In this document: positions 11,884 to 38,752 of the stretch, piece by piece | Numbering within the stretch: position 1 is the stretch's first letter | Layout: each line of letters begins with the position of its first letter | NCBI GenBank assembly: GCA_903850335.1 | Contig: CAINLJ010000168.1 | Span: 1 to 64,000, forward strand | DNA: 64,000 nt | Source: an uncultured Bacteroidia bacterium | GTDB lineage: Bacteria; Bacteroidota; Bacteroidia; Bacteroidales; Prolixibacteraceae | Reading direction: 5' to 3' | The notes under the pieces: generated by a model | Told to the model about the DNA's origin: nothing | The model's input: the letters and a program-made list of their open reading frames with translations, nothing else | Databases searched by the model: none | Program-made: the position numbers and the translations under genes

Positions 11884-11892
11884 TTTTTGAAT

Positions 11893-12852: not shown

Positions 12853-12860
12853 CAAAAGTA
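12853..12860 (-). promoter_or_regulatory. -7 box TACTTTTG for the RluA/GH92 operon
   Basis: An exact TAnnTTTG match on the minus strand, 39 nt before the RluA start. The -33 element is unclear. Confidence 0.5.
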
Positions 12861-12877
12861 CAACAATTTATGATGGT

Positions 12878-13789: not shown

Positions 13790-13854
13790 AGAGGACGGAT
13801 TATACCGGTTAATTTAATTGGAATTTGAATCTACGCTAATTAAGTGAAAATATC

Positions 13855-16053
13855 TCAATGAGAATACCCTTTATTTTTTTCTTCAATTACTGAAAAAACG
13901 GTCCTACCTCCCCTCACGCCTTCCATAACAAAAAACTTTCCATCTCTTTTCGCCTGAACCGGACTCCCATTACTTAATAAAACAGCACTTGGTATATCCC
14001 GAACCGGAACGAAAACTACCGCACTCATGTTTAAAGGAATAGTTAGGGCAAGATCGAAATGAGTCACATTATCTGTATTAAATTCACAAAATATCGATCC
14101 ACGGATTGTCGGAACCTTAATTTCAGATGAAATGAGACCACCTGTTTGCGGCTTAATCTGTGCTCGTTGAAATCCGGGTAAAAGTGGAACAATACCCCAG
14201 AAACCTCGTGTAATCATATTTGCAGGAACTGCTCCCCATGCATGATTCCAATCGAGATTTGGTTTAAATTTTGCATCCCAGGCCTCCATAGTTATCGTAG
14301 AACCTAAATTAATCATGTTCCACCAACTTCGTTCACCTTTCGACCGCATCAGATTGAGGGCCGAATTATCCTCTCCGGCAGAGTACAAAGCCTCGAGCAG
14401 ATATTGTGCGCCATATACACTACATGCCATTCCTCTCAGATTAATGAATTTCACGACTTCCGGAATAATATTATCTGGAACTATTCCAAAAGCCAGCGGA
14501 AAAATGTTAGCATGCAGCGAGGAATGGGCAGACCCCTGACCATCGAGATATTTCTTCTCTGTTTGACTAAAGAGTAAATTATTAATCGAGTTTTTTACCC
14601 TCTGCGCCCTCTCTTTAAAAAAGCGTTCATCATCAAATTCTCCAACTGCGTTCGCGATCCGGGCCATTAAAAAAAGTGATTCATAATGAAAGGCATTAAC
14701 CACTGTGCTCACTTCAGGCATCTCATTATTATCCCGTTCTATTGCGGGCCAGTCAACAATATCCTTAATAGGTCCATGAATATGTATGTCATTTAACAGC
14801 GTTTCAGTCAGAAGTCCTGTGCGTGTACTAATCAAGCCATCACTACGAGCCAAAGAAATTAAACTCTTGAATTTAAGGTCCTTATAGAATTTTACAAGAG
14901 ACCGGTTATCTCCTGTATATAAATAATCGGTATAGGCTATCATCACAGATTGCATGATCCATTCCGTTGGCCACGTTGGGTTATTAATTAAATATTCGTG
15001 TGAAAAACGTGCCATACTGTACTCCCTGTCGGTACAATAATGACCAAGCTGGTTGATATAAGCATCCGCTTCATAGGGTATCCGTTCCCTGTCACCATCA
15101 ACATATACACCACAAAAACTGGTTGCCTTAATTGTGTATTTACACAAATCCCAAACCTGATTAAGTACTGTATCGGAACAAGAGAAATAACTCTCATTTT
15201 CCTGCCAGAAATAATTAGTTGCAATCTGTTCAACTGATTTGCAGTGGATTAAGGGAGAATTGATTTCAATTTCGCAATACCTGAACGGGGTAACTTCCCC
15301 TGTCTCTGATGGCATATTGATAGCTGGATATTTTGTATGACGCTGAATATGAGGAATATTTATTGTATACAAATGCGTACCCTTTTCTACATTAAGACTG
15401 AAGTATCTATACCTGATTGTACCACCAGGATTCCTGTTTACCCTTTCCGAAGCTTCTGCTTTTTCACCGAGATGGATACGGATTGAATCTGATTTTTGAC
15501 TTTCAATACACACCCTGACAGTGCCAAATGCTGCCTTCCCAAAATCAACAAAATAATTACCCTTACTATTAATTTTAATCTCCCTAAGGGGTAAAATTGT
15601 GTGTTTAACCAATGGCATAACTGAGCTTCCCGTCCCTTTTGCAAATGATCCTGTTTTGAATTCTTGTATTTCTGAGGTTCCGGTATTATTATTCAGTCCT
15701 ATTTTAACCATGACATTCCAGAAATACGTTGTTAATGGTTTTAAAGGCACACCTCGATATTTCACATTGACCGACTCTTCGGAAATTATTTCACCACTAT
15801 TCCATACATCGGCAAACCCTTTTAAAAGATTCTTTTCGGAAGATGAGACTTTTATCGAATAACTCTTTTGAGCACCCTTAAAGGCATCATTTAATATCCA
15901 GGAAAAATTTGGCAATGGTTCATTAACAAATCCCTGGGATGGATCACGTAAGAATTCCACCATTAAGCCGGTTGGTCCGGCTTTCGTATTACCCCAAAGC
16001 GGAAAGGACGTGATGATCAGGAAAAACGGGAAAAGGAAGATCAGTTTATTCAT
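13855..16053 (-). CDS. GH78-like alpha-L-rhamnosidase
   Basis: A 732-residue secreted protein (signal peptide MNKLIFLFPFFLIITSFPLWG). An N-terminal fibronectin-like domain (GLMVEFLRDP ... PNFSWIL) is followed by a beta-sandwich (VDFGKAAFGTVRVCIES), an (alpha/alpha)6 barrel from about residue 290 (NQVWDLCKYT), and a C-terminal beta domain (GFQRAQIKPQTGG). The motif GVYVDGDRERIPYEADAYI carries the acidic residues expected of the catalytic site in this group of family-78 enzymes. It is shorter than many GH78 proteins and appears to lack the CBM67 module. Activity on rhamnosides is inferred. Confidence 0.85.
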   Translation of the reverse strand: MNKLIFLFPFFLIITSFPLWGNTKAGPTGLMVEFLRDPSQGFVNEPLPNFSWILNDAFKGAQKSYSIKVSSSEKNLLKGFADVWNSGEIISEESVNVKYRGVPLKPLTTYFWNVMVKIGLNNNTGTSEIQEFKTGSFAKGTGSSVMPLVKHTILPLREIKINSKGNYFVDFGKAAFGTVRVCIESQKSDSIRIHLGEKAEASERVNRNPGGTIRYRYFSLNVEKGTHLYTINIPHIQRHTKYPAINMPSETGEVTPFRYCEIEINSPLIHCKSVEQIATNYFWQENESYFSCSDTVLNQVWDLCKYTIKATSFCGVYVDGDRERIPYEADAYINQLGHYCTDREYSMARFSHEYLINNPTWPTEWIMQSVMIAYTDYLYTGDNRSLVKFYKDLKFKSLISLARSDGLISTRTGLLTETLLNDIHIHGPIKDIVDWPAIERDNNEMPEVSTVVNAFHYESLFLMARIANAVGEFDDERFFKERAQRVKNSINNLLFSQTEKKYLDGQGSAHSSLHANIFPLAFGIVPDNIIPEVVKFINLRGMACSVYGAQYLLEALYSAGEDNSALNLMRSKGERSWWNMINLGSTITMEAWDAKFKPNLDWNHAWGAVPANMITRGFWGIVPLLPGFQRAQIKPQTGGLISSEIKVPTIRGSIFCEFNTDNVTHFDLALTIPLNMSAVVFVPVRDIPSAVLLSNGSPVQAKRDGKFFVMEGVRGGRTVFSVIEEKNKGYSH

Positions 16054-23081: not shown

Positions 23082-25154
23082 CTAATTATAAAACGACCAG
23101 GATAGACCAAAGGCAAGGGAAGCCACTTGTGCCGCATAGGTTGGAGTTGTGTAATACCGTCTGGCTACCAGCTTACTCCCAATATTTGAGTACTTTACAT
23201 AGAAGCGAGTCCGCTTTAATTTTAGGTTTATAAAAGCATCCAGCCACGGATAATCACCAATTTTTTCGTTATGCTGAACATAAAACATACCCAGAGCAGG
23301 GCTATAATAATCCCCATAATATCCGGTATCATAACGCATATCCACTCCTATCTGTAATGCAAGAACCTTAGATACTAAACCGGAAAGAAAAACTGTGTTC
23401 CGTGTTGAGATTTCGGGTATATGTAAATATTTATCCGTTGTCGATTTCTGATACATAACCGAATTCTCCAGGTTCAGAGGCCCGAATTTAAAATCCTTTC
23501 TAATAAAAAACTGAGCCACAGAGAATTCTGAACTTGCCTGACCAGGAAGAGAAGATTCGTTCCAATAAATATATTTATTTACAATCGAGTATTTAAACCC
23601 AAATTTTAACCTTCTGAATGGCTTTTCGTATGCAGCTCCTACCTTCAATTCATAGGTCCGGTCGAAGCTATTATCCCATTTAAAATGATTAGAATAATAG
23701 TGCTTATAAAAATAATCCGGTGTAGAATTTGTCATGCTACCGGTCAGGCGGACGAATGATGTATCTCTGGATGTTCTGATTGGTTTTTCGATCTTTCCGG
23801 TTAATTCAAAATCCCCGGCTCTGTATCCCTGGATGTAATATCTGCCTGAAGCATTCCAGTTTAGAAATTTAGCATTTGATCTGAATATTGAACCACCCAC
23901 AAAAGTATTTGAGATACTCCTGGTCTGTGTAAGTCCCAATGGAGGTTTCATCAGACCTGGTGTATAGATTAATGCCTCACGAGGATAATACATATTTATT
24001 AAGTCATTCCCTATATAGGCCTGTTTACCAAAGGTATATTTCCTGTCCGGTGCCTCAACACCCTTGAGGTAAAACAGGTTTGTAAATCGTTTCATCCCTG
24101 TTTTATCCTGGGTTCCTGGCAATGTTGTTGACCCTTTGGCACTGTTAATATATGGAAGATGTTGAGTTCCATAAAAATAAACTGTCCCACGGGAATCGGT
24201 AAAGTCATTGGAAGGGTTCGGATCAATTTCATGGAAATTACGGGTATTATCGGAATATTCCAGAGTATGCATTATTGTAAATCGTGGGATGAATTTTTGA
24301 AATTCCTCATCCTTTTCCTTTACTTTGATCCATTTGCCAAATTTATACTGGTGTGCTATAACGGCGAAGGAGTTGTTTGATTCAGCAGCAGCACCGGTAA
24401 ACCAAACAGGCATATTCTCAGGTTTGAGGTCAGGATTTTTAATATCTGAAGGATTTAACAATCCCCCGTTTTCCTGATTTGTTGATTTATTCTTTCCTAT
24501 AATAAACCATAAATCGTACCGGTCGATGTTATAACTCGCAAACAAGTTCAGTGAATTATCCTTGGCTTCCTGATTAAGATACTTGCCCTGAGAAGAAATC
24601 GAGTTGTAACTAAAACCAAAATTCAATGCAGGATTAATATTTTGTGTCTGGAAAACTTTTAACCAGGATTCACCTACAGGTTTATTTACAAACCACTGAC
24701 CATAGTCGAGCAATGTAAACGGTTTTGTCGTATTGTAAAAATGAATATCCTTAGGGAGAGTTAAATATGATTGATAGTTACGAAGAAATAAGAATTCATT
24801 GGAATCAAAAGAGCGCTGGAAAAAATCGTTACTCTGCGCCGATGCTCCAAGATTACCAAGTGTCTGAGCCGATATGGACTTCTTATAGACTGGGTTATAG
24901 TTTTGAAAATCAGCAAATACTGTATCGAGCCGGCTTTCCTTGATGCGTGAATACCCGTCCTGGAATTCAAATACTTTCATTTTAAACACAATGGTGTCTT
25001 TTTTAGCATCCGTTTTCTTCCTGCCAGAGGCATTATTACTGCCTCCCCGGCTTTGGCCGGAGGTATTGGGACTGTAATTTCCCCTCTGCGCAAAGGCTAA
25101 ACCACAGTTGACTAGCAATATACCAAGAATAACGAACTTCAGCTTAATTCTCAT
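23082..25154 (-). CDS. Putative porin (Bacteroidota outer-membrane beta-barrel)
   Basis: About 690 residues from the chosen ATG, with signal peptide MRIKLKFVILGILLVNCGLAFAQ. A Gly/Ser/Asn-rich linker leads to a long series of alternating aromatic/polar strands ending with aromatic Phe-Tyr-Asn (LSWSFYN), as in outer-membrane barrels. The pattern fits the Bacteroidota putative-porin family. An in-frame ATG 15 codons upstream is rejected because a -7 box lies between the two and the signal peptide begins at the second. It lies 67 nt downstream of the regulator gene, and its own -7 box is only 6 nt from the ATG. Confidence 0.8.
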   Translation of the reverse strand: MRIKLKFVILGILLVNCGLAFAQRGNYSPNTSGQSRGGSNNASGRKKTDAKKDTIVFKMKVFEFQDGYSRIKESRLDTVFADFQNYNPVYKKSISAQTLGNLGASAQSNDFFQRSFDSNEFLFLRNYQSYLTLPKDIHFYNTTKPFTLLDYGQWFVNKPVGESWLKVFQTQNINPALNFGFSYNSISSQGKYLNQEAKDNSLNLFASYNIDRYDLWFIIGKNKSTNQENGGLLNPSDIKNPDLKPENMPVWFTGAAAESNNSFAVIAHQYKFGKWIKVKEKDEEFQKFIPRFTIMHTLEYSDNTRNFHEIDPNPSNDFTDSRGTVYFYGTQHLPYINSAKGSTTLPGTQDKTGMKRFTNLFYLKGVEAPDRKYTFGKQAYIGNDLINMYYPREALIYTPGLMKPPLGLTQTRSISNTFVGGSIFRSNAKFLNWNASGRYYIQGYRAGDFELTGKIEKPIRTSRDTSFVRLTGSMTNSTPDYFYKHYYSNHFKWDNSFDRTYELKVGAAYEKPFRRLKFGFKYSIVNKYIYWNESSLPGQASSEFSVAQFFIRKDFKFGPLNLENSVMYQKSTTDKYLHIPEISTRNTVFLSGLVSKVLALQIGVDMRYDTGYYGDYYSPALGMFYVQHNEKIGDYPWLDAFINLKLKRTRFYVKYSNIGSKLVARRYYTTPTYAAQVASLAFGLSWSFYN

Positions 25155-25160
25155 AGCCGG

Positions 25161-25168
25161 CAAAGATA
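25161..25168 (-). promoter_or_regulatory. -7 box TATCTTTG almost touching a start codon
   Basis: An exact TAnnTTTG on the minus strand, followed by six bases and the ATG of the putative porin. If used, the mRNA would have essentially no leader. No good -33 element is visible at the expected distance. Confidence 0.45.
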
Positions 25169-25221
25169 GGAATTTCCATTCAAAAGGTAAGACAGACATT
25201 TGGGATGTTTCAATTCTCTTG

Positions 25222-27819
25222 TCACTCCTCTTTCCTTATAAATGATTTAAAACTCATTGGAAATTGAATCCCATACATTTTTTCATATCCTTTGGTAAAA
25301 TAGGTGTAATCAAAAAATGCCTGATTATGATTTTTAAGTTTAATAAGTGCTTCAATCTTCAACTTGAAGGCTTCTTCATTCAGGGGATCGGATTTTAAAA
25401 TGAGGTCTGCGATCTTATAGATTGCTTCTGGGTTCTTATCCTTCTCGAACGAATCGGTCAGGAGGAAAAGATAATCGAGAAGTGATGACAGAAAATGACT
25501 GTTAAACGGATCAAGCCACGGAGTACGTTCGTCTGCTACAAATATGCCCTGGGTAAGGACAAGAATGATCTTCTCAAAATCTTCACGTGTCAGTGGCTGG
25601 AAGGTCCCCTTCATTTTTTTCAGAAGAAACTGATAGTCACAGAATACTTCGTTACTAAACTTCAAGACCCAGCTACCATCATTATGCAAAATTTGAACAC
25701 CGTTCAGACTCAGTAACAGATCCCTTAATTTCTTAAGGTTTACATTTCGGTTGTTCTTCGCACTCTCAGGGGAATGATAAGTCCAGTGAATACTATTTAA
25801 TTTTTCGTTTGTAATACCTTTTTCATCTGTTCCCAGGAGTAATATGGATAAGAAAAGCTGACGGATCTTTGTTGGAAACCTTGAACTAATCTCAATTCCC
25901 TCACTGTTATAGACCCGAAACTCGCCAAAAAGGTAAATAGCGTTTCTCTTTGGAAGTTCCACATGTTTTTTATCGTGATGTTCATTCCTGACCGGCACCT
26001 TCTCATTTACGAGCGAATTTAGCTGCTGGTCATCCTCAAGACTCTCTTCCGCTGTATGTAGTTCCCGCAATAATAATATCAGAACATAAATAAATACGAG
26101 AGAAAAGATACCAACCATCCAAAATACCTTTATTATCCAATTACCAGGGTTGGAAAGCACTGTCTTAAATGTAATTGCAAGCATCGAACGGTTTACAGGG
26201 GGGTAATTAAGCGTAAACACCTTATAAGTTGTCGAATCAGGACCAACCGGTGTCTTGATTACTGCAAAAAACTCGCGGGTCTTATCAAAAAAAGATAGGG
26301 ATGCTTTTGAACGTTCCTCGTCAAAATAAAAATGCATCGTGTCACTGACCGCTGAATACTCCGGCTTTTCGAGTGAAATACGATAAAGTTTGAGATATGT
26401 ACCATTTAAAAATGGAGGAAACCCCAGAATATAAAGTGCCGGTGTAGGCTCCGAAACAGTTGTTGAACCCATAGGGATAAAATTCTCCGAAACACTCTCA
26501 ATATTCCATTTTTTCTTAAGTAAAGAATCATTCGTATTCAAATGGTAAAGGTCATACAAACATTGCGGACCCAGTTCCTGCTGACCTGAAGCATTACCAT
26601 AGCCTCCAAAAATCAGATATTCTCCAGGTAAATTAGTTTTTGCGATGGCTGCATACGACCGGGGCACCAACTTATCACCCTTTAACAAAATCTGTTTCCA
26701 GTTTTTATCCGTGAAATTATAGCGCATTAAAAAGTCATTGTATCTGTAATTATGGTAACCACCAAGAGAATAGGCGACATTGCCCTGATCGTTTAAGAAA
26801 AATGTAGAGTTAACAGATTGCGTTGTATTAACTTCAAGGGCAGCTTTTTCCCATTCATTTTTGTTCTCATCATAAACATTTACTTCATTTGGGACAGTTC
26901 CTATGCAATATATCTTCCCCGTCTTGTATGAATAATAATACGATTCGGACTTTGTATTTGAAGGTTTGTTGTTAAGGACCTTCAGTGTGGTTATTTCGGA
27001 ATTAACAATGTCATAAACCAAGATTTTATGCTTTCCTATAAAAAGAATTCTGTTTTGTGCCGTATCGAATGCAATTCCTGAAGATGCTTCCATACGTAAT
27101 TCTTCTTTTTTCGTCCAGTAAAAGTGATTATTAATCAGCCAGTTTGGGTTAGTTGAATGTGCTGTTAAATTCCCAACCAGATCGGAAGCTTTCTCTCCTT
27201 CTGACTCATTCAACAACCAGTTATGTGCAGTTTTATTGTTATAATCAGCGATCCGTATGTTGCGGACTGCCATGCGAGGCACATCAGTAGTGGGAAAATA
27301 AATTGACCTGTTGGCACCAAAGATAATGTTAAGTTTTCTAAAGCCTGTTAAAACCACCTGATTGTCAGTAAAAACAGTATCACCCAAACTGACATCTATT
27401 TTCCCCTGCTTCAGATTAAACGACAATAAAAGATGAAGCCATGTATTGCGTACAAGGTCCTTTTCAACAAGAGGAATATTTATCGTGGTCGGCAAACCGT
27501 TAACAACGAGTTTTAATACAGCCAGCGTACTGCTTTCAGGAATGTAAACCAGATCAATATTGTGATGTTCCTTGTCAAAAATCCGGAAAACATATCCGAA
27601 CTGATCCCGTTTCCAGATAGAGAGATCGAATTCAAGATTAAGTTTATTTCGCGCTGTTACAAGTGAATTGGACGTCAGGTCAAGAGAAGTACGTTCCTCC
27701 TTTGCATTCGGAGCTGCTGTAAATAAGAGCCCGGAATGAAATAAATTCTGGGAAACTGACTTTAATGAAGGAAAAATCAATAAAACTAGTCCCAGAAATA
27801 TTAACGACCGATTTCTCAT
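25222..27819 (-). CDS. Membrane-spanning SARP-like regulator with periplasmic LamG/Kelch-like sensor
   Basis: 865 residues with an unusual order. A signal peptide (about 1-24) is followed by a LamG/concanavalin-like domain (about 28-225), then beta-propeller repeats of Kelch type (about 240-530; YSLGGYHNYRYND, EYLIFGGYGNASG). One transmembrane helix spans about 558-585 (VFWMVGIFSLVFIYVLIL). The cytoplasmic part has an OmpR-type winged helix (about 623-715; IYLFGEFRVYNSEGIEI, NNRNVNLKKLRDLL) and a BTAD-like helical domain (about 725-865; ILKSDPLNEEAFKLKIEAL). Winged helix plus BTAD is the SARP layout of actinobacterial activators. I infer a one-component sensor that binds a ligand outside the membrane and DNA inside. 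It lies between symporter and porin genes. Confidence 0.8.
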   Translation of the reverse strand: MRNRSLIFLGLVLLIFPSLKSVSQNLFHSGLLFTAAPNAKEERTSLDLTSNSLVTARNKLNLEFDLSIWKRDQFGYVFRIFDKEHHNIDLVYIPESSTLAVLKLVVNGLPTTINIPLVEKDLVRNTWLHLLLSFNLKQGKIDVSLGDTVFTDNQVVLTGFRKLNIIFGANRSIYFPTTDVPRMAVRNIRIADYNNKTAHNWLLNESEGEKASDLVGNLTAHSTNPNWLINNHFYWTKKEELRMEASSGIAFDTAQNRILFIGKHKILVYDIVNSEITTLKVLNNKPSNTKSESYYYSYKTGKIYCIGTVPNEVNVYDENKNEWEKAALEVNTTQSVNSTFFLNDQGNVAYSLGGYHNYRYNDFLMRYNFTDKNWKQILLKGDKLVPRSYAAIAKTNLPGEYLIFGGYGNASGQQELGPQCLYDLYHLNTNDSLLKKKWNIESVSENFIPMGSTTVSEPTPALYILGFPPFLNGTYLKLYRISLEKPEYSAVSDTMHFYFDEERSKASLSFFDKTREFFAVIKTPVGPDSTTYKVFTLNYPPVNRSMLAITFKTVLSNPGNWIIKVFWMVGIFSLVFIYVLILLLRELHTAEESLEDDQQLNSLVNEKVPVRNEHHDKKHVELPKRNAIYLFGEFRVYNSEGIEISSRFPTKIRQLFLSILLLGTDEKGITNEKLNSIHWTYHSPESAKNNRNVNLKKLRDLLLSLNGVQILHNDGSWVLKFSNEVFCDYQFLLKKMKGTFQPLTREDFEKIILVLTQGIFVADERTPWLDPFNSHFLSSLLDYLFLLTDSFEKDKNPEAIYKIADLILKSDPLNEEAFKLKIEALIKLKNHNQAFFDYTYFTKGYEKMYGIQFPMSFKSFIRKEE

Positions 27820-28023: not shown

Positions 28024-29844
28024 CTAATCTTCCAGTTTGTCGTACCAGTATATTTTCAGCAGGAACGAAGTAACAAGAAAAACGCCAAGGGTAACGGCAA
28101 GCGAAATATATTCCCGAATGACAAGATAAATTGGCATTACTAACATTGACATCTGCCAGGCGATTCCTATAATGCTGTTAGCCATATCTCTTTTAAAATT
28201 TGTATTCTTTTTAAAATCCGGCTGGTCGGTTAATACTTTTTTATAGATTGGGTCCCAAAATCCCCATGGGCGTACTGTTGAATAAAAATTCTTAAGAACA
28301 TTATCATTGTCAGGGGCGGTTAACAAACTACCCGCAACTGAGCCGGCAGAAGAGATGAGTAAGATTATAGGGAATGTATTTAAGGCAGAAGCTTCAGGGA
28401 AGAACAACGGGATAAAAATGGAAGTTACCAAACCGCTTAACATTCCCCAGAAATATCCATATCCGTTAAAGCGCCACCAGATCCATTTTAAAACGTTGGC
28501 AGCCGTATAACCACCATATAAGGATGAAACAATCCATTTAGTAGCAGAATCAATTGAATGAATAAATATTCCAAAACAAACTCCGACAATTACAACGATA
28601 AATGAAACCCAGTAACTTAATCTGATATATCTTCTGTTAGTGGCATTTGGGTTAATGTATTTTTTGTAAATATCATTGACAATATACGCGGGACCGGCAT
28701 TCACGTAAGCTGAAAAAGTCGACATAAAAGCTGCAATGAGCCCAATAAGAAGTATACCTAACAGACCTGTTGGAATGAAATTACTTACTGCATAGGGGAA
28801 TATCATCTCAAAGTCAATATCGGCTCCCATGGAATTAAGTTTGGGACTAAAATAAACAAGTACCAAAACGGTTATTCCGGCAACGAGCAAAAAACGGGGA
28901 AAAAATAATACAAGTGAAGTGAATCCCGTCATTCGTGCTGCATCCCGGGGACTTCTTGTTGAAAGGATCCGCTGAAGGTCATAACTAGGCACGGGTCCGG
29001 CAATACTCACAAGTATGCCTTTGAAAATCATGATCATGAAAATAATTGAGAAAAACTCATATCCGTCGGCCGAAATCTTACTTTTTACAGTAGGAATAAG
29101 ATTACTCCAGTCGAGATTCAGTTTCCATCCAAAGAAAAGGTCCTTCCAGCCAGCAGGGATAACCGCATTTAATTGCACCGGTGTTACAAGGTTCATCGCG
29201 ATAACACCGACAATAAAACACGAAATAATCATCACGAGATACTGCATAATTTCGGTTGCAACAACACTATACATACCTCCTTTTATTGTGTAAAGGGTTG
29301 TAAAGCCGATAATCAAAAGGGCATACATGTTTTCTGAAGAAATTATCCGGTTGCCGACCTCCGTTGTCAGGTCCCAGGGGAAAAAAGATGTTGCAAATTT
29401 CCCAATTCCCGAAAATGTATAAGCTATAAATCCAATAACACTAAATATTGCGAAGATTACGATGATAAGATGTGAAAGACGTCCTCCCCGGTCCTCGCCA
29501 AAACGGGTCTTTAACCATTCAGCACCTGTCATTGCATTGGATCGTCTTAACCAACCGGCCAGGAATACCATTAGAAAAACTTGATTCCAGATTGGCCACA
29601 TCCAGGGTAACCAGGCCCCTTTTAACCCATAAATAAATAAAATGGAAACAAACCACATTGTTCCGGTAATATCAAACATACCGGAGGCATTTGATATAGC
29701 GAGAATATACCAGGGAATTTTCCTCCCGCCCAAAAAATATGAATCAAGATTTTTGCTTGCACGATTGGAAATAAGAAAACCAATTACCAGGGTAAGAACC
29801 AAATATCCAATAACGATTCCAATGTCCAGAGGTTGCAGATTCAT
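28024..29844 (-). CDS. Sodium:solute symporter (SSS family)
   Basis: A 606-residue inner-membrane transporter with about 13-14 hydrophobic helices. Family features are the first-helix region IGYLVLTLVIGFLISNR, then NLDSYFLGGRKIPWY, the ASGMFDITGTMWF stretch after helix 2, and GLIAAFMSTFSAYVNAGPAYIVNDIY, where sodium-site Ser/Thr residues are expected. The substrate (sugar, amino acid or other) cannot be told. Its place after SusC and SusD suggests it takes the imported solute across the inner membrane. Confidence 0.9.
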   Translation of the reverse strand: MNLQPLDIGIVIGYLVLTLVIGFLISNRASKNLDSYFLGGRKIPWYILAISNASGMFDITGTMWFVSILFIYGLKGAWLPWMWPIWNQVFLMVFLAGWLRRSNAMTGAEWLKTRFGEDRGGRLSHLIIVIFAIFSVIGFIAYTFSGIGKFATSFFPWDLTTEVGNRIISSENMYALLIIGFTTLYTIKGGMYSVVATEIMQYLVMIISCFIVGVIAMNLVTPVQLNAVIPAGWKDLFFGWKLNLDWSNLIPTVKSKISADGYEFFSIIFMIMIFKGILVSIAGPVPSYDLQRILSTRSPRDAARMTGFTSLVLFFPRFLLVAGITVLVLVYFSPKLNSMGADIDFEMIFPYAVSNFIPTGLLGILLIGLIAAFMSTFSAYVNAGPAYIVNDIYKKYINPNATNRRYIRLSYWVSFIVVIVGVCFGIFIHSIDSATKWIVSSLYGGYTAANVLKWIWWRFNGYGYFWGMLSGLVTSIFIPLFFPEASALNTFPIILLISSAGSVAGSLLTAPDNDNVLKNFYSTVRPWGFWDPIYKKVLTDQPDFKKNTNFKRDMANSIIGIAWQMSMLVMPIYLVIREYISLAVTLGVFLVTSFLLKIYWYDKLED

Positions 29845-30036: not shown

Positions 30037-31608
30037 TTAGAAGTTTGGACCGCCGGTATCCCACCATAAACGTGTAGCGATATCGTCCTTAGCTCCGGCA
30101 CCCATAGTAGAAACTGCAGCAGCAACAGCAGCAGCATTACCATTTCTTTCGCCTGTGGTGAATGGCATTCTCTTAATCCACTGGTCAGCAGGTATAACAC
30201 CCCAGTCAGGACTACTGTCATTCTTGGCAACATGGGGAATCTTAGGATAACCTGTTCTGCGGAAGTCAACCCAAGCCTCAAGAGTGTTCGTGAAGTTATT
30301 CAGATATTTCTGAGTAATAATCTTCTCTAATTTCAGTTCATTGCTATCGCCTTCATTCCATGCTACAGTAATTGTAGAACGTGCAGTAAAGCTGTTACGT
30401 GCATCCTTTGGATCAACATAATTGATTGGTGTACTTGTTGCATCAGCAATATAAGAATCGGCACCACTTGCACCCCAGTCAGCAAAAGAAAGTGATATAC
30501 CAGCTTCGTAGTTGGCTTTTGCACTTCCAGCTCCGGCCCAGCCTCTAAGAGCGGCTTCCGCCTTCAGGAATTTAACTTCAGCAGCGGTAAAAGACCTTCT
30601 TGTCTGAACGCTATTAAAGTCATAGGATACCCTTGAATAAGGCACCTTGTCGATTTTAGCATCGCAATACGCACCGTTACGAATTCCTTTATAAGGAACA
30701 GAAGGGTGGTCAGCATACAGGTTCGGGAAGTCAGCAGCAGAGAAATATTTAGAAATACGACCGTCTTTTAAACCTACCATGAAAGATTCCATCGCAGCAC
30801 CCATACGTGTATCATCCCACTGGAAGCAAATCATAGCGACAGGAATTAAATTACCTAATAAGGAAACATTGAAGTTATCACCATTAGTTTCAATCAAACC
30901 ATTTGCATCAGCCATAGCCTTCTCACCTTGTGCCTTTGCAAGAGCAGGAGCCACATTGGTCAAACGCATTGCTAACCTTAAACGCATTGAGTTGATAAGT
31001 TTACTCCATGCAGACATGTTACCATTGTAACTTGGGTCAAATTTCTTGAATCCTACGTAAGATTTATTAGCAGAAAAATCGGTCTGAAAGGAATCCAACT
31101 GAGCAAAGAATGTGTTGTAAAGAGTAGATTCACTGTCATAACCAATTGAAGCATCAGTTGATCCATATTTAGAATAAATAACTGGTCCATGATAAGCAGT
31201 CAGCTTCGAAATGGAAAGAAGTCTGATAAATTTAGCCCAGCTGGCAAACAGAGGTAAATTATTCTTTTTAGCCAGATCAATAACCTGTTTTGAAGGAGAC
31301 ATTACAGAACCATAAACACGATCCCAATAAACGTTCCAACGAATATAATAGGTTGTATTGTTTACGTTACCCACGAATGGAGTAGGAGTATTCATATAGC
31401 CCATAAAAGAATCATGAACCAGATCCTCTTCAATCTGATGTCCGAAAAGATTGAATAATAATCCGGAGAAGGGAGATCCCAATAAGTTAAAGTCTTGCGT
31501 AAGCATCTGATCAGTAATCTGATACGGATTCTGATTCTCATTTACAAAATTCGATGTGCACGCAGCGAGACTACACATGAACAGAAATGCAATAAATATC
31601 TTTTTCAT
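30037..31608 (-). CDS. SusD/RagB-like nutrient-binding lipoprotein
   Basis: A 523-residue surface lipoprotein (MKKIFIAFLFMCSLAACTS, lipobox Cys at 17). The start FVNENQNPYQITDQML and later features (RLAMRLTNVAPALAK, FTAAEVKFLKAEAALRG, FTNTLEAWVDFRRTGYPKI) fit the SusD-like_2 branch of TPR-based SusD homologues. It should form a lid over the SusC channel encoded 20 nt upstream. No substrate can be inferred. Confidence 0.92.
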   Translation of the reverse strand: MKKIFIAFLFMCSLAACTSNFVNENQNPYQITDQMLTQDFNLLGSPFSGLLFNLFGHQIEEDLVHDSFMGYMNTPTPFVGNVNNTTYYIRWNVYWDRVYGSVMSPSKQVIDLAKKNNLPLFASWAKFIRLLSISKLTAYHGPVIYSKYGSTDASIGYDSESTLYNTFFAQLDSFQTDFSANKSYVGFKKFDPSYNGNMSAWSKLINSMRLRLAMRLTNVAPALAKAQGEKAMADANGLIETNGDNFNVSLLGNLIPVAMICFQWDDTRMGAAMESFMVGLKDGRISKYFSAADFPNLYADHPSVPYKGIRNGAYCDAKIDKVPYSRVSYDFNSVQTRRSFTAAEVKFLKAEAALRGWAGAGSAKANYEAGISLSFADWGASGADSYIADATSTPINYVDPKDARNSFTARSTITVAWNEGDSNELKLEKIITQKYLNNFTNTLEAWVDFRRTGYPKIPHVAKNDSSPDWGVIPADQWIKRMPFTTGERNGNAAAVAAAVSTMGAGAKDDIATRLWWDTGGPNF

Positions 31609-31628: not shown

Positions 31629-34600
31629 TTAGAAAGTGACCTTTAAGTTAAACCCATAAGTCCTTGTGTTAGGAACACTAAATACGTCGTTTGACTGCAT
31701 AGAATTTCCTGTGCTCATTGCCTGCTCAGGATCGTAAGGAGCTTTTTTGTAGAAGAAGAACAAATTCCTTCCAATCAAAGAGAAAGAAGCTTCCTTTACA
31801 GGTAATTTAAGTTTTTTAACATTAAAGTTATAGCCAAGAACCAACTGACCTAATCTTACGTTTGTTCTGGAATAGATATAAGGTTCCATGATTCTGTTTC
31901 TATCACCGACTGCTCTGTAATAAACTTCAGGATCAATAGAAGTTACAGGTGTAGTTCCCTTAATAGCATTGATTGGCATAGTGCTGTTAGCTCTTGCATC
32001 AGCTGTTCTTTTACTCACACCATAAGAATCAAGGAAGGCCTCAGTTTTAGAGAATGCAACACCACCAAACTTAGCATTGATAAGTGCGCTCAGGTAGAAG
32101 TCCTTATAAGTAACCGTGTTGTTCCATCCCAGGATAAAATCAGGATTTACATTACCAACTTTAACTTGTTTTGCAGCTTTTGTAGGATTGCCATTTGCAT
32201 CGAGGATGATCTGACCTGCATCATTACGGTTAAATTTGTAAATGTAAACATCGTTAAATGAACCACCTGCCTTGATAATAGAAGCAAAACCCTCGTCATC
32301 ACCACCAACCTGATAATTAGGCTGAGATGCAATAAGTTCGTTGATCTTGTTCTTATTCTGAGAAAGGTTGATTGAAGTCTTCCAGCTTGTTGTTGTAGAT
32401 CTTACCGGTTCGGCATCAATTGTAAGTTCGAAACCCTTATTGGTGATCTTACCAGCATTAACATAGAAATAAGTGTAGCCTGAACCTGATGGGGCACCTA
32501 AAGTAAGGAACTGGTTAGTACTTACGTCATCATAATATGTAAACTCAAGTCCTGCTCTGCCATGGAAAAATCTCCACTCGGTACCAATTTCATTTGATGT
32601 AATTACTTCAGGTTTTAAGTTTGTAAAAGGAACCTGGGTATTTCTGCCGATACCGCCAATACCACTAGGTGTTCCTGCACCATTGATACTATTTGCAGGG
32701 TTTACTACGTTAAATGGAACCTCGTTTGCAGTCTGAGAAGAGGATACTCTAAACTTAGCAAAAGAAATTGGTTCAGGAAGAGAAACACTCTGGCTAAGAA
32801 TCCACGAAAGACCAACTGCAGGATACAAATAAGATTGGTTTCCTGTTAAAGCCAATGTAGAAGCCCAGTCGTTACGAGCGGATAAATCTAAGAAAAGCTG
32901 TTCCTTGTATCCAAGTTGAACGTTTGCAAATGCGCCTTGTTTGATTACCTTGTTGATTCCCTGGTTGAACATTACATTGTAAGGCATGTTCGCAAAGGAG
33001 AAGAAGTTAGGATACATCAAAGAAACAGTTCCGTTTCCTACAGACATTCCATCACTAAAGGTATTGTGCTGGTAGCTGGCTCCTGCGATAGCATTCACGC
33101 TGAATTTACCGAATGTATTGTTGTAGCTTAAGATACCGTCAGTATATAATGCCTGGTCTGTATATTTACTGTATGACCATGTTCCGTTTGGACTAACGCT
33201 TACAGAGTTACCTCCGGCAGCATATCTGTTGTCATTTAATTTATTAGCGTAGTCAATGTTTCCTCTGACTTCGAATTTAAGATGCTTTGCAACGTCCCAT
33301 GCTAATTTCACACTGGCAATAGCACGTTTTGTAGTAGAGAGTTTAGGATCTTTATTGATCTCCCAGTAAGGGTTGTTTTGTTTTTCTTCTGTGGAATACC
33401 AGTTCATCACATCCATATTCCTGTCTTTGTTGAAAGTGGCATAGTGAGTCTTGTAGCTTCCAAAATCCCTTTCACGTGCAAATAAGTAAAGACCTGTAAG
33501 TGGGTTATTGTAGTAACCTGCGCCCGGACGGTTACGGGAAACCTCATCAGAAAACATTACATTCGAACTGATAGTTACCTTGTCGTCAAACAATTTTGTA
33601 GACTGGTTGAATGTGAAGTTGTTTTTCTGATAGGTATTGGTTGGCATCACACCCTTTGCAGAGGTGTTAGAATAAGAGAAATATACTGTAGTCTTGTCAT
33701 TTCCTCCACTGATTGAGAGAGAATTTGTCTCGTTAACACCAGTCTGGAAGAAATTCTTGATATAATCTCTCTGATAATTTCCCTTTGTTTTAGACCAGTT
33801 ATAATCTGAATTGTTAACTGCGCCGTAATCATACTGGAAATCCGGAAGGCCTGAAACCTGATCAAGCATTGTGCTTGAGCTGATAGTTACAGTTGTTTTT
33901 TCTGCTTTACCTTTTTTGGTTGTAATCAAAACAACACCATTGGCACCCTGGCTACCATAAAGGATAGAAGCGTTCGCACCTTTAAGTACGTTGATGCTTT
34001 CGATATCACCCGGGTTAATCTGTGAAAGACCATCACCACCGTCAACACCTCCGTAAGAACCAGGCTGACCACCTTTATTGTTTACCATTGGAATACCATC
34101 GATAACATAAAGAGGTTCGCTAAGACCTACAAGAGATTTATTACCTCTCAATACCGCTTTTGTAGAACCACCTGCACCAGAGTTGCTGGTCTTGATATCA
34201 ATACCTGCAGCTTTTCCACTCATAGCCTCCATAAAGTTGTTGTTGGCAGCTACACGAAGTTCTGTGCCCGATACCTGCTGAGAAGCATAGGTCAGCGTTT
34301 TCTTCTCACGCTGGATACCCAAAGCCGTTACGACAACCTCATTGATACCAACACTTTCTGATTTCATCTTCAGGTTGATGACAGAACGACCATTTAAGGC
34401 CTCCGTTACCGTTGTCATACCCACAAAAGAGAATTGCAAGTCTGCGTTCGCGGAACTTACGCTTAACGAGTACTTCCCATCCGCATCGGTTGTAGTTCCA
34501 TTCGTCGTCCCTTTCTGAACAACAGATACACCAGGAATACTGATCCCTTCCGGATCAGTAACAGTTCCGCTTACTTTCACCTGAGCCATAACGCCCGAAA

Positions 34601-34646
34601 ATGAAGCAAACAGTACGATCAAAATAAGGTACAATCTTTTCTTCAT
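31629..34646 (-). CDS. SusC/RagA-like TonB-linked outer-membrane transporter
   Basis: A 1005-residue protein with signal peptide (MKKRLYLILIVLFASFSGVMA). A carboxypeptidase-regulatory-like domain occupies about 22-100 (VSGTVTDPEGISIPGVSVVQ). The SusC-type plug signature EPLYVIDGIPMVNN and GDIESINVLKGANASILYGS come next, then a barrel of about 750 residues ending TRTYGFNLKVTF. It imports ligands with energy from TonB and pairs with the SusD gene that follows. Operator-like repeats precede it. Confidence 0.95.
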   Translation of the reverse strand: MKKRLYLILIVLFASFSGVMAQVKVSGTVTDPEGISIPGVSVVQKGTTNGTTTDADGKYSLSVSSANADLQFSFVGMTTVTEALNGRSVINLKMKSESVGINEVVVTALGIQREKKTLTYASQQVSGTELRVAANNNFMEAMSGKAAGIDIKTSNSGAGGSTKAVLRGNKSLVGLSEPLYVIDGIPMVNNKGGQPGSYGGVDGGDGLSQINPGDIESINVLKGANASILYGSQGANGVVLITTKKGKAEKTTVTISSSTMLDQVSGLPDFQYDYGAVNNSDYNWSKTKGNYQRDYIKNFFQTGVNETNSLSISGGNDKTTVYFSYSNTSAKGVMPTNTYQKNNFTFNQSTKLFDDKVTISSNVMFSDEVSRNRPGAGYYNNPLTGLYLFARERDFGSYKTHYATFNKDRNMDVMNWYSTEEKQNNPYWEINKDPKLSTTKRAIASVKLAWDVAKHLKFEVRGNIDYANKLNDNRYAAGGNSVSVSPNGTWSYSKYTDQALYTDGILSYNNTFGKFSVNAIAGASYQHNTFSDGMSVGNGTVSLMYPNFFSFANMPYNVMFNQGINKVIKQGAFANVQLGYKEQLFLDLSARNDWASTLALTGNQSYLYPAVGLSWILSQSVSLPEPISFAKFRVSSSQTANEVPFNVVNPANSINGAGTPSGIGGIGRNTQVPFTNLKPEVITSNEIGTEWRFFHGRAGLEFTYYDDVSTNQFLTLGAPSGSGYTYFYVNAGKITNKGFELTIDAEPVRSTTTSWKTSINLSQNKNKINELIASQPNYQVGGDDEGFASIIKAGGSFNDVYIYKFNRNDAGQIILDANGNPTKAAKQVKVGNVNPDFILGWNNTVTYKDFYLSALINAKFGGVAFSKTEAFLDSYGVSKRTADARANSTMPINAIKGTTPVTSIDPEVYYRAVGDRNRIMEPYIYSRTNVRLGQLVLGYNFNVKKLKLPVKEASFSLIGRNLFFFYKKAPYDPEQAMSTGNSMQSNDVFSVPNTRTYGFNLKVTF

Positions 34647-34723: not shown

Positions 34724-34754
34724 CGATTAACAGAGCGATTAATTTTACGATTAA
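34724..34754. promoter_or_regulatory. Three CGATTAA direct repeats at 12-bp spacing (putative operator)
   Basis: CGATTAA occurs exactly at 34724, 34736 and 34748, with a weaker GTATTAA at 34758. It covers the region where the susC -33 element should be. Direct heptamer repeats a few bases upstream of the -10 box are the known form of SARP activator sites. Confidence 0.65.
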
Positions 34755-34960
34755 TTTGTATTAATTTAACAAATATTTACAAAATATTTTTAAACGGTCT
34801 AAATAAGAATTTTTCCTAAAATCAAATTTATCATGCTAATAATGAATATAATACGAAATTATCCAATGTGAATACCAATCAAAAATCAAAAAAACGACTA
34901 AAATAATGCAATTTCAAAGTGTTAAAAAATTTAAAAATAACCTTTAAAAGAATCACACAC

Positions 34961-35199: not shown

Positions 35200-36033
35200 T
35201 TAACTAAATCCCCCGCTTATGTACTCCCTTGTAAGCTTATGTTTCGGATGATTAAACACCTGATCAGCCGTTCCGAATTCAATGAGTTCACCCATATACA
35301 TAAATGCGACATAATCGGCAATACGCTTTGCCTGTCGCAATGTATGAGTAACTAAAACGATTGTATATTTATCCTTGATGGAAAGGAAGAGTTCCTCAAT
35401 TGTCTTTGAGGAGATTGGATCCAGTGCTGAGGTGGCCTCATCACCAAGTATAATCTCAGGCTCAACAGCCAAACCTCTGGCGAGGCAGAGACGTTGCTGC
35501 TGACCAATTGAAAGTTTTGAAGCAGGTGATTTTAGGCGGTCTTTTACCTCTTCCCACAAACCAACAGCATTTAACTGATGACGTGCGATAGCATATAATT
35601 TTCTGCGTCCTCTCACACCATGGATGCGCGGACCATAAACCACATTGTCGATAATTGACATTGGAAGAGAACAGGGACGCTGAGCCAGCAGGCCCATCTT
35701 CTTGCGTATATGAGTAACCTCAGTATCTTTCGCGTAAATATCCTCGCAATCGACAAAAAGCTTTCCGGTTATCTTTACATCCACAGAGTCATCATGCAAT
35801 CGGTTAAACGTACGCAGCAAGGTGGTCTTGCCACACCCGGAAGGACCAATTATGCAGGTGATACTCTTATCCGGAATAGCCATATTGATATTTTTAAGAA
35901 TATGATTACCCTGAATATAAAGGTTCAGATTTTCCACTTCAATATGAGGCTTCTCACATCCTGAAGAATTCTTTACTTTAGTTTTTGGTTGTTCAGCAAT
36001 CATAGGTTCTGTCATCAATTCCATTTGATTCAA
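35200..36033 (-). CDS. pstB: Phosphate ABC transporter ATP-binding protein
   Basis: A 277-residue PstB that powers phosphate uptake by the PstSCAB transporter. Walker A is GPSGCGKTTLLR, the Q-loop region is LAQRPCSLPMSI, and the switch His lies in VLVTHTLRQAKR. The signature reads LSIGQQQRL instead of LSGGQQQRL, and Walker B reads IILGDEATSALDP instead of the usual xDEPxSALDP. An extra 25 N-terminal residues precede the domain. It overlaps pstA by 4 nt. No phoU follows. Confidence 0.93.
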   Translation of the reverse strand: MNQMELMTEPMIAEQPKTKVKNSSGCEKPHIEVENLNLYIQGNHILKNINMAIPDKSITCIIGPSGCGKTTLLRTFNRLHDDSVDVKITGKLFVDCEDIYAKDTEVTHIRKKMGLLAQRPCSLPMSIIDNVVYGPRIHGVRGRRKLYAIARHQLNAVGLWEEVKDRLKSPASKLSIGQQQRLCLARGLAVEPEIILGDEATSALDPISSKTIEELFLSIKDKYTIVLVTHTLRQAKRIADYVAFMYMGELIEFGTADQVFNHPKHKLTREYISGGFS

Positions 36034-36869
36034 ATTTTATTTTTTGAGAGTCTTCTGCTAAAAAATCTTGCTGCAAAACTCAGTATGAGGATTATTATTG
36101 TCAGAACAAGTGCCGCAGCATACGCCCTGTTCTGTACTTCTTCGACGGGACTGCTAAGCTGGAAAAATATTGCCAGAGGCAGTGATGCTGTTGGCTGCAG
36201 AAGAGAAGTGGGGATACTGTCTGTGTATCCTGCAGTGAATAGTACCGTCGCAGCGTCACCAATTCCACGACCCACCGACAAGAGCACTGCCGTTGATATA
36301 CCGGGTAACAGCTGTCGGGTTATTACCTTTATTGTCTCGTAATTCGTTGCTCCGAGCGACTTAGTTGCCTCTACAAGTTCATTAGGAATCAATATGGCCA
36401 CTTCGTCAATAGACCGGATCATTACCGGAATAATTAATAGACTGATTGCGATGATACCCCCTAATAATGATGCCTGCAGACCAAAATAGATCATCACAGT
36501 AAATCCAAAGGCTCCATAGACTATCGAAGGAATTCCAAATAAAACATCGAATGTTAACCTTGCGAAAGAGGCAAGCTTACTTTTGCGTCGAAGGGTAAAA
36601 TTCAGATACATAACCACCGGCACGCTAATCATCAGGCTTATTATAACTGAAAAGAAAATCAGATAAAGCGAACCAATTATCGCATTTAAAATGCCACCCT
36701 CCTTCCCAAGGTAAAATCCGCCGCTGGGTATTTTTGAGATTATATCCCATGAAAGTGAGGGTAATCCTTTTTTTAATATTACGTAAAGAATAAAAATCAA
36801 TACACTAAATATCAATACCGTAGAGCCTATCATTAAAAATCTGAAGATTTTTTCCTCTAACTTTTTCAT
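36030..36869 (-). CDS. pstA: Phosphate ABC transporter permease PstA
   Basis: A 279-residue inner-membrane permease with six helices. The binding-protein-dependent transport motif is EATKSLGATNYETIKVITRQ (about 165-185), which contacts PstB. Family features include KKGLPSLSWDII near the N-terminus and GIPSIVYGAFGF. Four-nt overlaps with pstC and pstB show one tightly coupled operon. Confidence 0.94.
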   Translation of the reverse strand: MKKLEEKIFRFLMIGSTVLIFSVLIFILYVILKKGLPSLSWDIISKIPSGGFYLGKEGGILNAIIGSLYLIFFSVIISLMISVPVVMYLNFTLRRKSKLASFARLTFDVLFGIPSIVYGAFGFTVMIYFGLQASLLGGIIAISLLIIPVMIRSIDEVAILIPNELVEATKSLGATNYETIKVITRQLLPGISTAVLLSVGRGIGDAATVLFTAGYTDSIPTSLLQPTASLPLAIFFQLSSPVEEVQNRAYAAALVLTIIILILSFAARFFSRRLSKNKI

Positions 36870-37762
36870 AATTGATATCTTTTGTCGATCTGGATAAGCA
36901 CCAGTCGTGAAATAATATTGAATATTACGATGATAAAGAAAAGTAAAAATGCCGCAAACATAAGTGCTGATTCGTATTTAGGTACGGACATCATTTCGCC
37001 ATAGTTATTCGCAATTAGTGCCGGTAAGGGATAACATGCATCGAAGATTGATTTGGGCAAATCTGTAAAATTTCCGCAAACCATCAGTACGGCTATTGTT
37101 TCGCCAAATGCTCTTGAAATTGCCAAAACTGTCGCAGCTACGATTCCAGGGAATGATTTTCGTATCACGACCTTTTTTACTGTTTGCCATTTTGTGGCTC
37201 CCAAAGACATTGAAGCCTCCCTCATCTCCTTAGGAACAGCCGAAAAAACTTCGATAAGAATACTAATAATAAGCGGGATTATCATAATTGCCAAAACAAT
37301 TCCGCCTGCCAGGACGCTGTATCCGGTTGAGAATTCAACAAAATGAGGTGCCAGATTTTCTGAGATGAATGGTACAATTGTAAGAGTTCCCCATACTCCG
37401 TAAATGACAGGTGGAATCCCTGAAAGCAAATCCACTACTGCACTAAAATAGCGTAAAATCGTTGGTGAGGCATATTCAATTATATAAATTGAAGTAAGCA
37501 AAGAAAGAGGTAAGGCAATAAGTATTGCAATACCTGTGACAGAAAGAGTGCTTAATATATAGGATGCGAAACCAAAGTCGCCTTTAAACGGGCGCCAATT
37601 ACTTGTTGTCAGGAGAGTCCAGAGACTCTTCTCCTGCAGAATAGGCAAAGATTTATAAAATAACCCTCCGCCAATAAGGAAAAGCACGAATATCGATACT
37701 ACAGTCGCCGTTAACATGTAGTGTCTGGCAATTTTATCTTTTAGCAGTCTTCCTCTCAACAT
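36866..37762 (-). CDS. pstC: Phosphate ABC transporter permease PstC
   Basis: A 298-residue inner-membrane permease pairing with PstA. It has the signature GIPPVIYGVWGTL, the EAA loop EASMSLGATKWQTVKKVVI, and ISRAFGETIAVLMVCGN, typical of PstC. It starts 1 nt after the PstS stop and overlaps pstA by 4 nt. Confidence 0.94.
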   Translation of the reverse strand: MLRGRLLKDKIARHYMLTATVVSIFVLFLIGGGLFYKSLPILQEKSLWTLLTTSNWRPFKGDFGFASYILSTLSVTGIAILIALPLSLLTSIYIIEYASPTILRYFSAVVDLLSGIPPVIYGVWGTLTIVPFISENLAPHFVEFSTGYSVLAGGIVLAIMIIPLIISILIEVFSAVPKEMREASMSLGATKWQTVKKVVIRKSFPGIVAATVLAISRAFGETIAVLMVCGNFTDLPKSIFDACYPLPALIANNYGEMMSVPKYESALMFAAFLLFFIIVIFNIISRLVLIQIDKRYQL

Positions 37763-37763
37763 C

Positions 37764-38714
37764 CTAATTCAAATTTTTAAGCCCTTTTTGGATTATATCG
37801 TTAGACAAATTTATATATCCTGTTTCATTAACAAACTTTTGTCCATCGGCAAGGACCCATTTTAGAAATTCAATTACAAGTTTATTGGATGGTTTCCCAT
37901 GTGTAACAAAGTAAAGATCCCGGGCAGGTGGGGAAGGATATTTTCCCTTTGCTATTGCATCAATCAAATCGTTCATCGATGAGTAAAAATCTTCTTCAGG
38001 ATCAATCTTCCCGTTTTTATTCAGATCAATAGGTACTACCCGAATACCCTGTATTTGTTTTTTTGTATTAAAGTCATAAGCATATCCAATATTATTATAT
38101 CCTATACCAATAGGATCCTTTTTAACGGCCAAAGCCAGACCAGGGTCACCAAAGACACCGCTTCCAAGGAGATCCTCCTGTTTCTTACCAAAATATTTTG
38201 CCCAGACCTCTGCAGCGCCACAAGCGTCGGAACGAGTATAGATATGCATTGGTGTTTGTGATTTGGAATGGAAGGCCTGACCCCAGGTTTTATCTTTACC
38301 GGTGATCCAGATGTCGGTACCAGCCTCTTCAGTTAATCCTGTGGCAAGAATTTCTTTCAATGCAGGGTTTTGATCACTTATTACAGCCACTACTGCATCC
38401 TTTGTCACAGCAAACCCAAAAGCACCTTTTTTTGCCTCTTCGGGGTTGATATCACGTGAAACCATACCCAGATCAACCATATTATTTAACACGTCAGTCA
38501 TTCCCTTTCCTGCCCCACCGGCAGATATATCTATTTTAACGTCAGGATTCAATTTTTTAAACTCCTCAGCCCATTTAACTGCCATCGGATATAATGCAAA
38601 TGCACCTGACAATGATAGTCGGCCTTCTAATTTTCCCTGGCAATAAGCCTGATAAGGGAATAAAACATTACAAACTAAAATAATTATAATCAAATAAAAT
38701 AATTTATTCTTCAT
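37764..38714 (-). CDS. pstS: Phosphate-binding protein PstS
   Basis: A 316-residue periplasmic phosphate-binding protein. Signal peptide (MKNKLFYLIIIILVCNVLFP), then the phosphate-contacting LSGAFALYPMAVKW, ISAGGAGKGMTDVLN (Ser/Gly loop) and TRSDACGAAEVWAKY. Residues about 229-240 (DLNKNGKIDPEE) form a perfect EF-hand-type calcium loop, not a standard PstS feature that I know. It lies 38 nt downstream of the phosphate-porin gene and directly before pstC. Confidence 0.92.
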   Translation of the reverse strand: MKNKLFYLIIIILVCNVLFPYQAYCQGKLEGRLSLSGAFALYPMAVKWAEEFKKLNPDVKIDISAGGAGKGMTDVLNNMVDLGMVSRDINPEEAKKGAFGFAVTKDAVVAVISDQNPALKEILATGLTEEAGTDIWITGKDKTWGQAFHSKSQTPMHIYTRSDACGAAEVWAKYFGKKQEDLLGSGVFGDPGLALAVKKDPIGIGYNNIGYAYDFNTKKQIQGIRVVPIDLNKNGKIDPEEDFYSSMNDLIDAIAKGKYPSPPARDLYFVTHGKPSNKLVIEFLKWVLADGQKFVNETGYINLSNDIIQKGLKNLN

Positions 38715-38752
38715 TGCCCTTTTTATTAAAAATCTTATTGTTAAAAAACTTC

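Follow-up and report, generated by a model that had tools for sequence, protein, structure and literature searches.

Which protein controls the susCD operon of an uncultured member of the Bacteroidia, and does it act from the membrane? The question arises at a 64,000-nucleotide stretch of DNA, here called the window (GenBank assembly GCA_903850335.1, contig CAINLJ010000168.1, positions 1 to 64,000), from a bacterium of the Prolixibacteraceae. The susCD operon of the window also holds a gene for a protein with an N-terminal sensor region, a transmembrane helix and a C-terminal module that resembles SARPs such as AfsR. Our answer, to which we give a probability of about 0.7, is that this regulator is a one-component, phosphotransfer-free protein that spans the membrane and, while staying there, activates the susCD operon.

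The regulator gene and its SARP-type output module

The gene is read from the minus strand, at coordinates that an earlier, sequence-only reading of the window had given correctly without naming the strand. Its parts are listed below.

25222..27819 (minus strand): regulator gene, ATG start, 865 amino acids; sensor, transmembrane helix, SARP-like module
27748..27819 (minus strand): Sec-type signal peptide, residues 1-24; hydropathy peak at residues 5-23, end ...SVSQ
27115..27744 (minus strand): LamG-like region, residues about 26-235; weak profile match
26185..27084 (minus strand): Kelch-type beta-propeller, residues about 246-545; PF24681 and PF24981 matches, outer limits estimated
26071..26127 (minus strand): transmembrane helix, residues 565-583; strongly hydrophobic
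25654..25950 (minus strand): OmpR-type winged helix, residues about 624-722; hhalign alignment with SARPs; W679 and R699
25234..25650 (minus strand): BTAD-like all-helical domain, residues about 724-862; hhalign alignment with SARPs

By homology, the C-terminal module is of the SARP type, an OmpR-type winged helix directly followed by a BTAD-like domain, as had been proposed for the part behind the membrane segment. The evidence is a family profile built from 71 aligned C-terminal regions, with relatives drawn at the levels of genus, family, order and phylum. Compared with nine actinobacterial SARPs from annotated plasmids, this profile aligned end to end over 248 collinear columns (hhalign Prob 96.5, P 9.3e-10); when it was reversed as a control, P was 0.73. 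Single sequences gave far sparser matches. The C-terminal ~240 residues of the window regulator matched neither Trans_reg_C nor BTAD, nor any other model, in a Pfam search. Pfam scans of single members hit BTAD most often (11 of 71 at E<=0.1, best 0.0013), followed by Trans_reg_C (9 of 71, best 2.5e-4), and one of 57 full-length members matched the NCBIfam AfsR/SARP model BagI/FevR (8.3e-5). The window's own genome holds a single copy of the module and has no BTAD match at E<=0.01; thus, the BTAD model misses this regulator family. Sequence searches of the PDB returned nothing significant, the best matches (E 0.04, 0.03 and 0.04) all being proteins unlike such regulators, and winged helices of SaeR appeared at E 0.1-0.5.

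Two residues of the winged helix link it to DNA contacts in AfsR, whose W74 and R94 are listed among the conserved DNA-contacting residues in passages of PMC10936776. Based on AfsR numbering counted by hand on its printed chain, W74 corresponds to W679 of the regulator, a tryptophan in 71 of 71 members, and R94 to R699, which is arginine in 62 and lysine in the other nine. The spacing of the pair is the same in both proteins and the intervening stretch aligns without a gap. The position of AfsR T88 is valine in 56 of the 71 members and threonine in 14.

Since eight orthologues from the same genus, 67-86% identical, keep the reading frame, the open reading frame is not due to chance, and a frame artefact is ruled out. 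One of the eight, in genome G002, contains a single TAA inside the match, so that its reading frame ends three residues early (862 amino acids).

Sensor region, membrane orientation and distribution

The signal peptide, the Kelch-like repeats and the single transmembrane helix of the sequence-only reading were all recovered, the helix within the range suggested for it (near 558-585). PF24681, a Kelch model, matches residues 307-495 with E 8.2e-12 and 45.3 bits, slightly under the curated Pfam cut-off of 50, and PF24981 matches residues 264-430 (E 3.2e-8). The LamG-like domain fared less well. A Pfam scan of the window regulator gave no LamG match, and support appears at the level of the family, where the N-terminal part of 45 Kelch-type members aligned with the last ~190 columns of a second sensor class (hhalign Prob 31.5, P 5e-4; reversed control, P 0.4). 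This weak alignment falls where the second class carries its LamG domain, and we therefore call the region LamG-like at best. Of the four domains that had been named, Pfam finds Kelch in the regulator itself, Trans_reg_C and BTAD weakly in relatives, and LamG in relatives but not in the regulator.

Across 86 members of the family, the window regulator included, a transmembrane helix precedes the module in 84, at a median of 20 residues from the matched module (range 5 to 56). A further hydrophobic stretch is present in eight. A crude hydropathy rule flagged a signal peptide in 66 members; by eye, the 20 unflagged members mostly have a signal-like start or an N-terminus that is cut or misplaced. 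In the 15 residues flanking the 84 helices, the mean charge is +3.45 on the module side versus +0.35 on the sensor side, and the module side is the more positive in 65 of 84 and equal in eight. Because of the signal peptide and this family-wide positive-inside charge, we infer that the sensor lies outside and the DNA-binding C-terminus in the cytoplasm.

An output module behind a membrane helix could also act after release, with intramembrane proteolysis, set by the ligand or by its absence, freeing a soluble SARP fragment that would work in the cytoplasm like any other SARP. Such cleavage would fit a module that is complete in itself and the variable helix-to-module distance noted above, and it would fit a locus (L178:7849-11573) in which a full-length member is followed by a stand-alone SARP-like module of 271 amino acids without a transmembrane helix. 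We nevertheless regard proteolysis as unlikely: no protease was found among 20 Pfam-scanned representatives of neighbour clusters, which cover only part of the neighbours, and passages of PMC3878776 describe SusR-like proteins and hybrid two-component regulators as membrane-anchored.

The module is widespread in the family of the window genome, being present at E<=1e-5 in 91 of 140 genomes. At the same threshold it was found in at least 9 of 198 genomes of the order and at least 24 of 392 of the phylum, counts that may be low, as up to 13 and up to 6 candidates per genome, respectively, were scored. Thirteen of the phylum matches are below 1e-40 (hand count); the remaining 11 (1e-9 to 1e-15) are distant and in several cases partial. 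Based on their sensors, 49 of the 86 members are LamG-like/Kelch, 35 belong to the second class and two are unassigned. Pfam found Laminin_G_3 in 28 of 57 full-length members and the commonest Kelch model in 27. The label PLC-like plus LamG for the second class is a weak one, as PI-PLC-X matches one of the 57 and a TIM-barrel model two. A 464-amino-acid relative in another genome of the genus (L021:763-2154, genome G007) consists of a Kelch part, a transmembrane helix and a short C-terminal region; this region has no Pfam match and looks like a winged helix without BTAD, possibly a minimal version.

The sus operon, its neighbours and predicted operators

The gene order places the regulator in a Sus locus: the operon runs susC, susD, symporter, regulator, Porin_10. 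The other genes of the operon and the two predicted operators are as follows.

31629..34646 (minus strand): susC, TonB-linked receptor, predicted target; TIGR04056, 1.1e-189
30037..31608 (minus strand): susD, SusD-like lipoprotein; PF12741, 1.6e-136
28024..29844 (minus strand): sodium:solute symporter family transporter; PF00474, 5.3e-28
23082..25199 (minus strand): Porin_10 putative porin; PF14121, 4.1e-136; 22 bp downstream of the regulator
34725..34755 (minus strand): predicted operator of three TTAATC repeats (two ATTAATC, one GTTAATC) at a 12-bp step; 78 bp upstream of the susC start codon
27872..27888 (plus strand): predicted autoregulatory operator of two TTAATC repeats at an 11-bp step; in the regulator promoter, opposite to the regulator gene

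The association with susC extends across the family. In 18 of the 86 members the next gene is a susC, compared with 1 of 101 control genes taken from 20 arbitrary regions of 18 of the same genomes (Fisher 3e-6), and after dereplication at 50% identity in 11 of 52 versus 1 of 101 (Fisher 3e-5). Within five genes the counts are 34 of 86 and 4 of 101, and the control regions contain three full-length susC genes in 400 kb. A Porin_10 gene also lies downstream of the regulator in several orthologues. Recurrent neighbours, with families assigned from one Pfam-scanned representative per cluster, include the glycoside hydrolase (GH) families GH92, GH76, GH43, GH3 and GH130, ECF sigma factors, FecR, a GFO/IDH/MocA oxidoreductase and a 3-keto-disaccharide hydrolase. 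A GH130 mannoside phosphorylase gene lies between symporter and regulator in three (L220, L223, L224) of the eight loci of the genus in which this interval is covered, and two loci further removed, L125 and L140, have GH130 as well; the window locus has none in this interval.

Other gene sets were seen nearby. A block next to the regulator recurs (e.g., L115, L119, L143, L147), downstream of or divergent from members, and encodes a NapC/NirT plus FGE-sulfatase domain protein, a GFO/IDH/MocA oxidoreductase, a glycosyltransferase 2 and a TPR protein. Just upstream of the sus operon of the window (35200-39901) are an ABC transporter set, read as phosphate-type (ATPase, two permeases and a PBP-like binding protein), and a Porin_O_P gene. 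Genes for GH92 and for a GH78 rhamnosidase (window 9616-16053) lie ~13 kb and ~9 kb, respectively, from the regulator.

The periplasmic LamG-like/Kelch half would bind a ligand, most likely an oligosaccharide imported by its own SusCD system. A manno-oligosaccharide is suggested as the perhaps relevant one because some orthologous loci carry the GH130 phosphorylase. It is also conceivable, and can hold together with the other parts of our reading, that the regulator senses a non-glycan cue such as the state of the envelope or a partner protein, with the Kelch propeller as a protein-binding platform. Kelch propellers often bind proteins, and part of the family adjoins genes not evidently for glycan uptake, such as those for the NapC/NirT plus FGE-sulfatase protein and the TPR protein. 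We consider a cue of this kind rather doubtful given the susC and glycoside hydrolase neighbours, including GH130 at the loci named above.

The predicted operators have the syntax of SARP operators, which PMC10972967 and PMC10936776 describe as direct repeats of a heptamer, sometimes in three copies, with 11 bp as the classical step; binding of the regulator to them is a prediction. The triple upstream of susC is kept in five aligned susC promoters (window and L220-L223) while much of the flanking sequence on both sides diverges. Before the susC of L140, where the regulator is 36% identical, TTAATC-TTAACC-TTAATC stands at the same steps. In the 5.5-Mb genome of the window the triple occurs once at up to one mismatch (never in the backward control), and two exact ATTAATC copies at a 12-bp step are found only at 34725-34755. 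Eighteen genomes of the genus were sampled, nine of which have an orthologue at >=67% identity. A triple lies 73-78 bp before a susC in eight of these nine, own genome included, versus none of the nine without an orthologue (Fisher 2e-4). Seven of the eight triples are exact and that of G014 has one mismatch. The ninth genome, G017, is 78% complete and its contig ends ~620 bases beyond susD, before the promoter. Triples also occur in G001, G003 and G004, which lack an orthologue, with no open reading frame matching the window susC within 400 bp, and four orthologue-bearing genomes hold six further one-mismatch triples that precede no matching susC. In the promoter of the regulator itself, the 11-bp pair is seen in six of eight aligned sequences and is followed by a TATATTTG-like box, which resembles the Bacteroides -7 element. 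The only other place in the window with such repeats is 5301-5320, inside an open reading frame, where TTAACC/TTAATC pairs overlap at a 12-bp step on both strands.

For a membrane-bound activator, these elements suggest the following course. Ligand binding would alter or dimerise the regulator through the transmembrane helix; the cytoplasmic SARP modules would then sit side by side on the TTAATC triple before susC, with its 12-bp spacing, and bring RNA polymerase to the operon of susC, susD and symporter. The second, inverted pair in the regulator's own promoter would give autoregulation.

Related repeats are found beside other members of the family. TTAAYC pairs at 10-12 bp occur near the regulator, in intergenic stretches, at 16 of 52 dereplicated members versus 0 of 70 control positions, and all those found have a spacing of 11 or 12 bp. 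The 16 members represent 15 places, since L178 has two members and is counted twice; 14 of 33 Kelch-type members and 1 of 17 PLC-type members bear a pair, as does one unassigned member. Fifty composition-preserving shuffles gave a mean of 0.28 members with a pair and at most two. By spacing, there are nine pairs at 11 bp, seven at 12 and six at 24, with 0-2 at the others from 6 to 35. TTAAYC ranks first among 180 letter permutations, the next best scoring 7, and pairs are present in 21 of 178 regions near the regulator versus 3 of 304 that are four or more genes distant. At L126, L127, L138 and L180, of the PLC-like/LamG class, TTACCCC or close forms stand at 12-bp steps upstream of the gene after the regulator, as if DNA specificity had changed with the sensor class.

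Several results weigh against a membrane-bound SARP activator that reads these repeats. In the protein, AfsR P79 is not conserved (proline in 14 of 71 members), and the sigma-contacting E76/E77 of AfsR correspond to Y681/H682 by hand count. Structure predictions, from the window sequence and five related loci that are 78-86% identical, have a mean pLDDT (predicted local distance difference test) of 43.5 for the C-terminus and 34 for the full length, and give no check of the fold. The membrane-spanning one-component layout proposed in the sequence-only reading has the SARP module, the helix, the signal peptide and the charge bias of the family on its side, but the window regulator's own helix opposes the positive-inside rule (sensor side +1, module side -3; 12 residues), which we treat as a local exception. 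As for the repeats, the TTAAYC word was noticed in the output of a triple-repeat scan, so that the pattern was partly chosen on loci later counted, and held-out tests were therefore made. Scored with the matrix, members that lack a strict pair (n=36) exceed controls (P 9e-5; P 0.006 vs the same loci at spacing 8/9), a signal driven by the PLC-type members; the 19 Kelch-type members among them alone give P 0.02 and 0.06. Strict pairs are present in three of 22 validation members, which are the matches in 20 regions fetched afterwards (P 0.012 vs 0/70); one of the three is 83% identical to a training member, and without it the count is 2 of 21 (P 0.051). The six validation loci of genome G728 have no strict pair, and a matrix test on the validation set is not significant at n=22 (P 0.10 vs controls; 0.52 vs the same loci at spacing 8/9). 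The link between repeat and regulator is also one of co-presence, as a genome that lacks the regulator may be missing the locus altogether.

These points bear on an alternative in which a different transcription factor owns the repeats and the regulator has its targets elsewhere or works in another manner. Besides the co-presence and the sparse validation pairs, it is favored by the scan itself, which was run with no preset word on 20 dereplicated susC upstream regions and gave no strongly outstanding period (none with >=7/8 matching columns). Against it, the repeat precedes both susC and the regulator's own gene with SARP syntax, the pair form is enriched beside dereplicated members with spacing peaks at 11, 12 and 24 bp, and G010 has the site before a susC that lies ~43 kb away on the contig of the regulator, the susC fragment being 45% identical to that of the window. 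Foreign ownership of the repeats thus appears improbable to us.

Relation to known regulators

In domain content, the regulator resembles the SARPs (AfsR, ActII-ORF4, EmbR), with which it shares the succession of OmpR-type winged helix and BTAD over the 248 aligned columns and, in its predicted operator, direct repeats at about one helical turn. It differs from them in that its module is C-terminal, behind a transmembrane helix and an N-terminal extracytoplasmic sensor, and in that its family is found in Bacteroidota, partly in sugar-uptake loci. Large SARPs, in passages of PMC10936776, carry their extra domains at the C-terminus.

ToxR and CadC have an N-terminal cytoplasmic winged helix and a C-terminal periplasmic domain. 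The regulator resembles them in joining an OmpR-type winged helix to a membrane-integrated one-component protein. In contrast to them it has the sensor first, a signal peptide and an added BTAD, and with the domain order reversed, membership in this group was rejected.

Two kinds of regulator known from Sus loci share the general layout. The hybrid two-component systems of Bacteroides likewise have a large periplasmic sensor, span the membrane, carry the DNA-binding part in the same chain and control Sus loci (passages of PMC3878776); membership was rejected, there being no kinase, receiver or AraC domain among the Pfam matches of the regulator. SusR, according to the same paper, sits in the membrane, senses in the periplasm and has its DNA-binding domain in the cytoplasm, close to the carboxy terminus; that C-terminus lacks significant similarity to known factors, and the predicted SusR sites show a tandem spacing of 67 or 77 bp. 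A SusR homologue in L188, beside GH13, GH97, susC and susD, has a signal peptide, a TPR-like part, a transmembrane helix and DUF6377. SusR and, by prediction, the regulator thus share a signal peptide, a periplasmic sensor, a transmembrane helix, a C-terminal DNA-binding domain, the lack of phosphotransfer and a place at a Sus locus. Unlike the regulator, SusR (PF19904/DUF6377) has a TPR-like sensor and an unrelated C-terminal domain. DUF6377 is not among the Pfam matches of the window regulator or of the 57 full-length members scanned, and the one SusR homologue compared with the family profile showed no similarity (hhalign Prob 0.7, P 0.077), so that membership in the SusR family was rejected too. 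SusR is nevertheless a functional precedent for a phosphotransfer-free membrane-spanning Sus regulator, which the sequence-only reading overlooked. A regulator of this sort built on a SARP module is new. Bacteroidota are rich in transmembrane transcription regulators according to a survey (PMC10269533), in whose text a search for BTAD, though not for SARP, gave no occurrence, and among open papers we found no description of a membrane-spanning SARP.

More broadly, the balance tips slightly towards Bacteroidota carrying a large class of membrane-spanning SARP activators. The class would comprise two or more exchangeable sensor types (LamG-like/Kelch and PLC-like plus LamG), and its members would stay membrane-bound as they read TTAAYC or TTACCCC tandem repeats with a step of 11-12 bp. 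If so, membrane SARPs would join SusR, hybrid two-component systems and ECF sigma/anti-sigma pairs as a further solution to the control of glycan uptake. They would supply a candidate regulator for many Bacteroidota sugar-uptake loci, with Pfam missing the window protein and finding its relatives weakly, and the predicted operator would be a directly testable target for such loci. The SARP module, known from the control of antibiotics in actinomycetes, would thereby be placed in membrane-bound nutrient sensing, which raises the question of how proteins that are each anchored in the membrane come to occupy three adjacent repeats.

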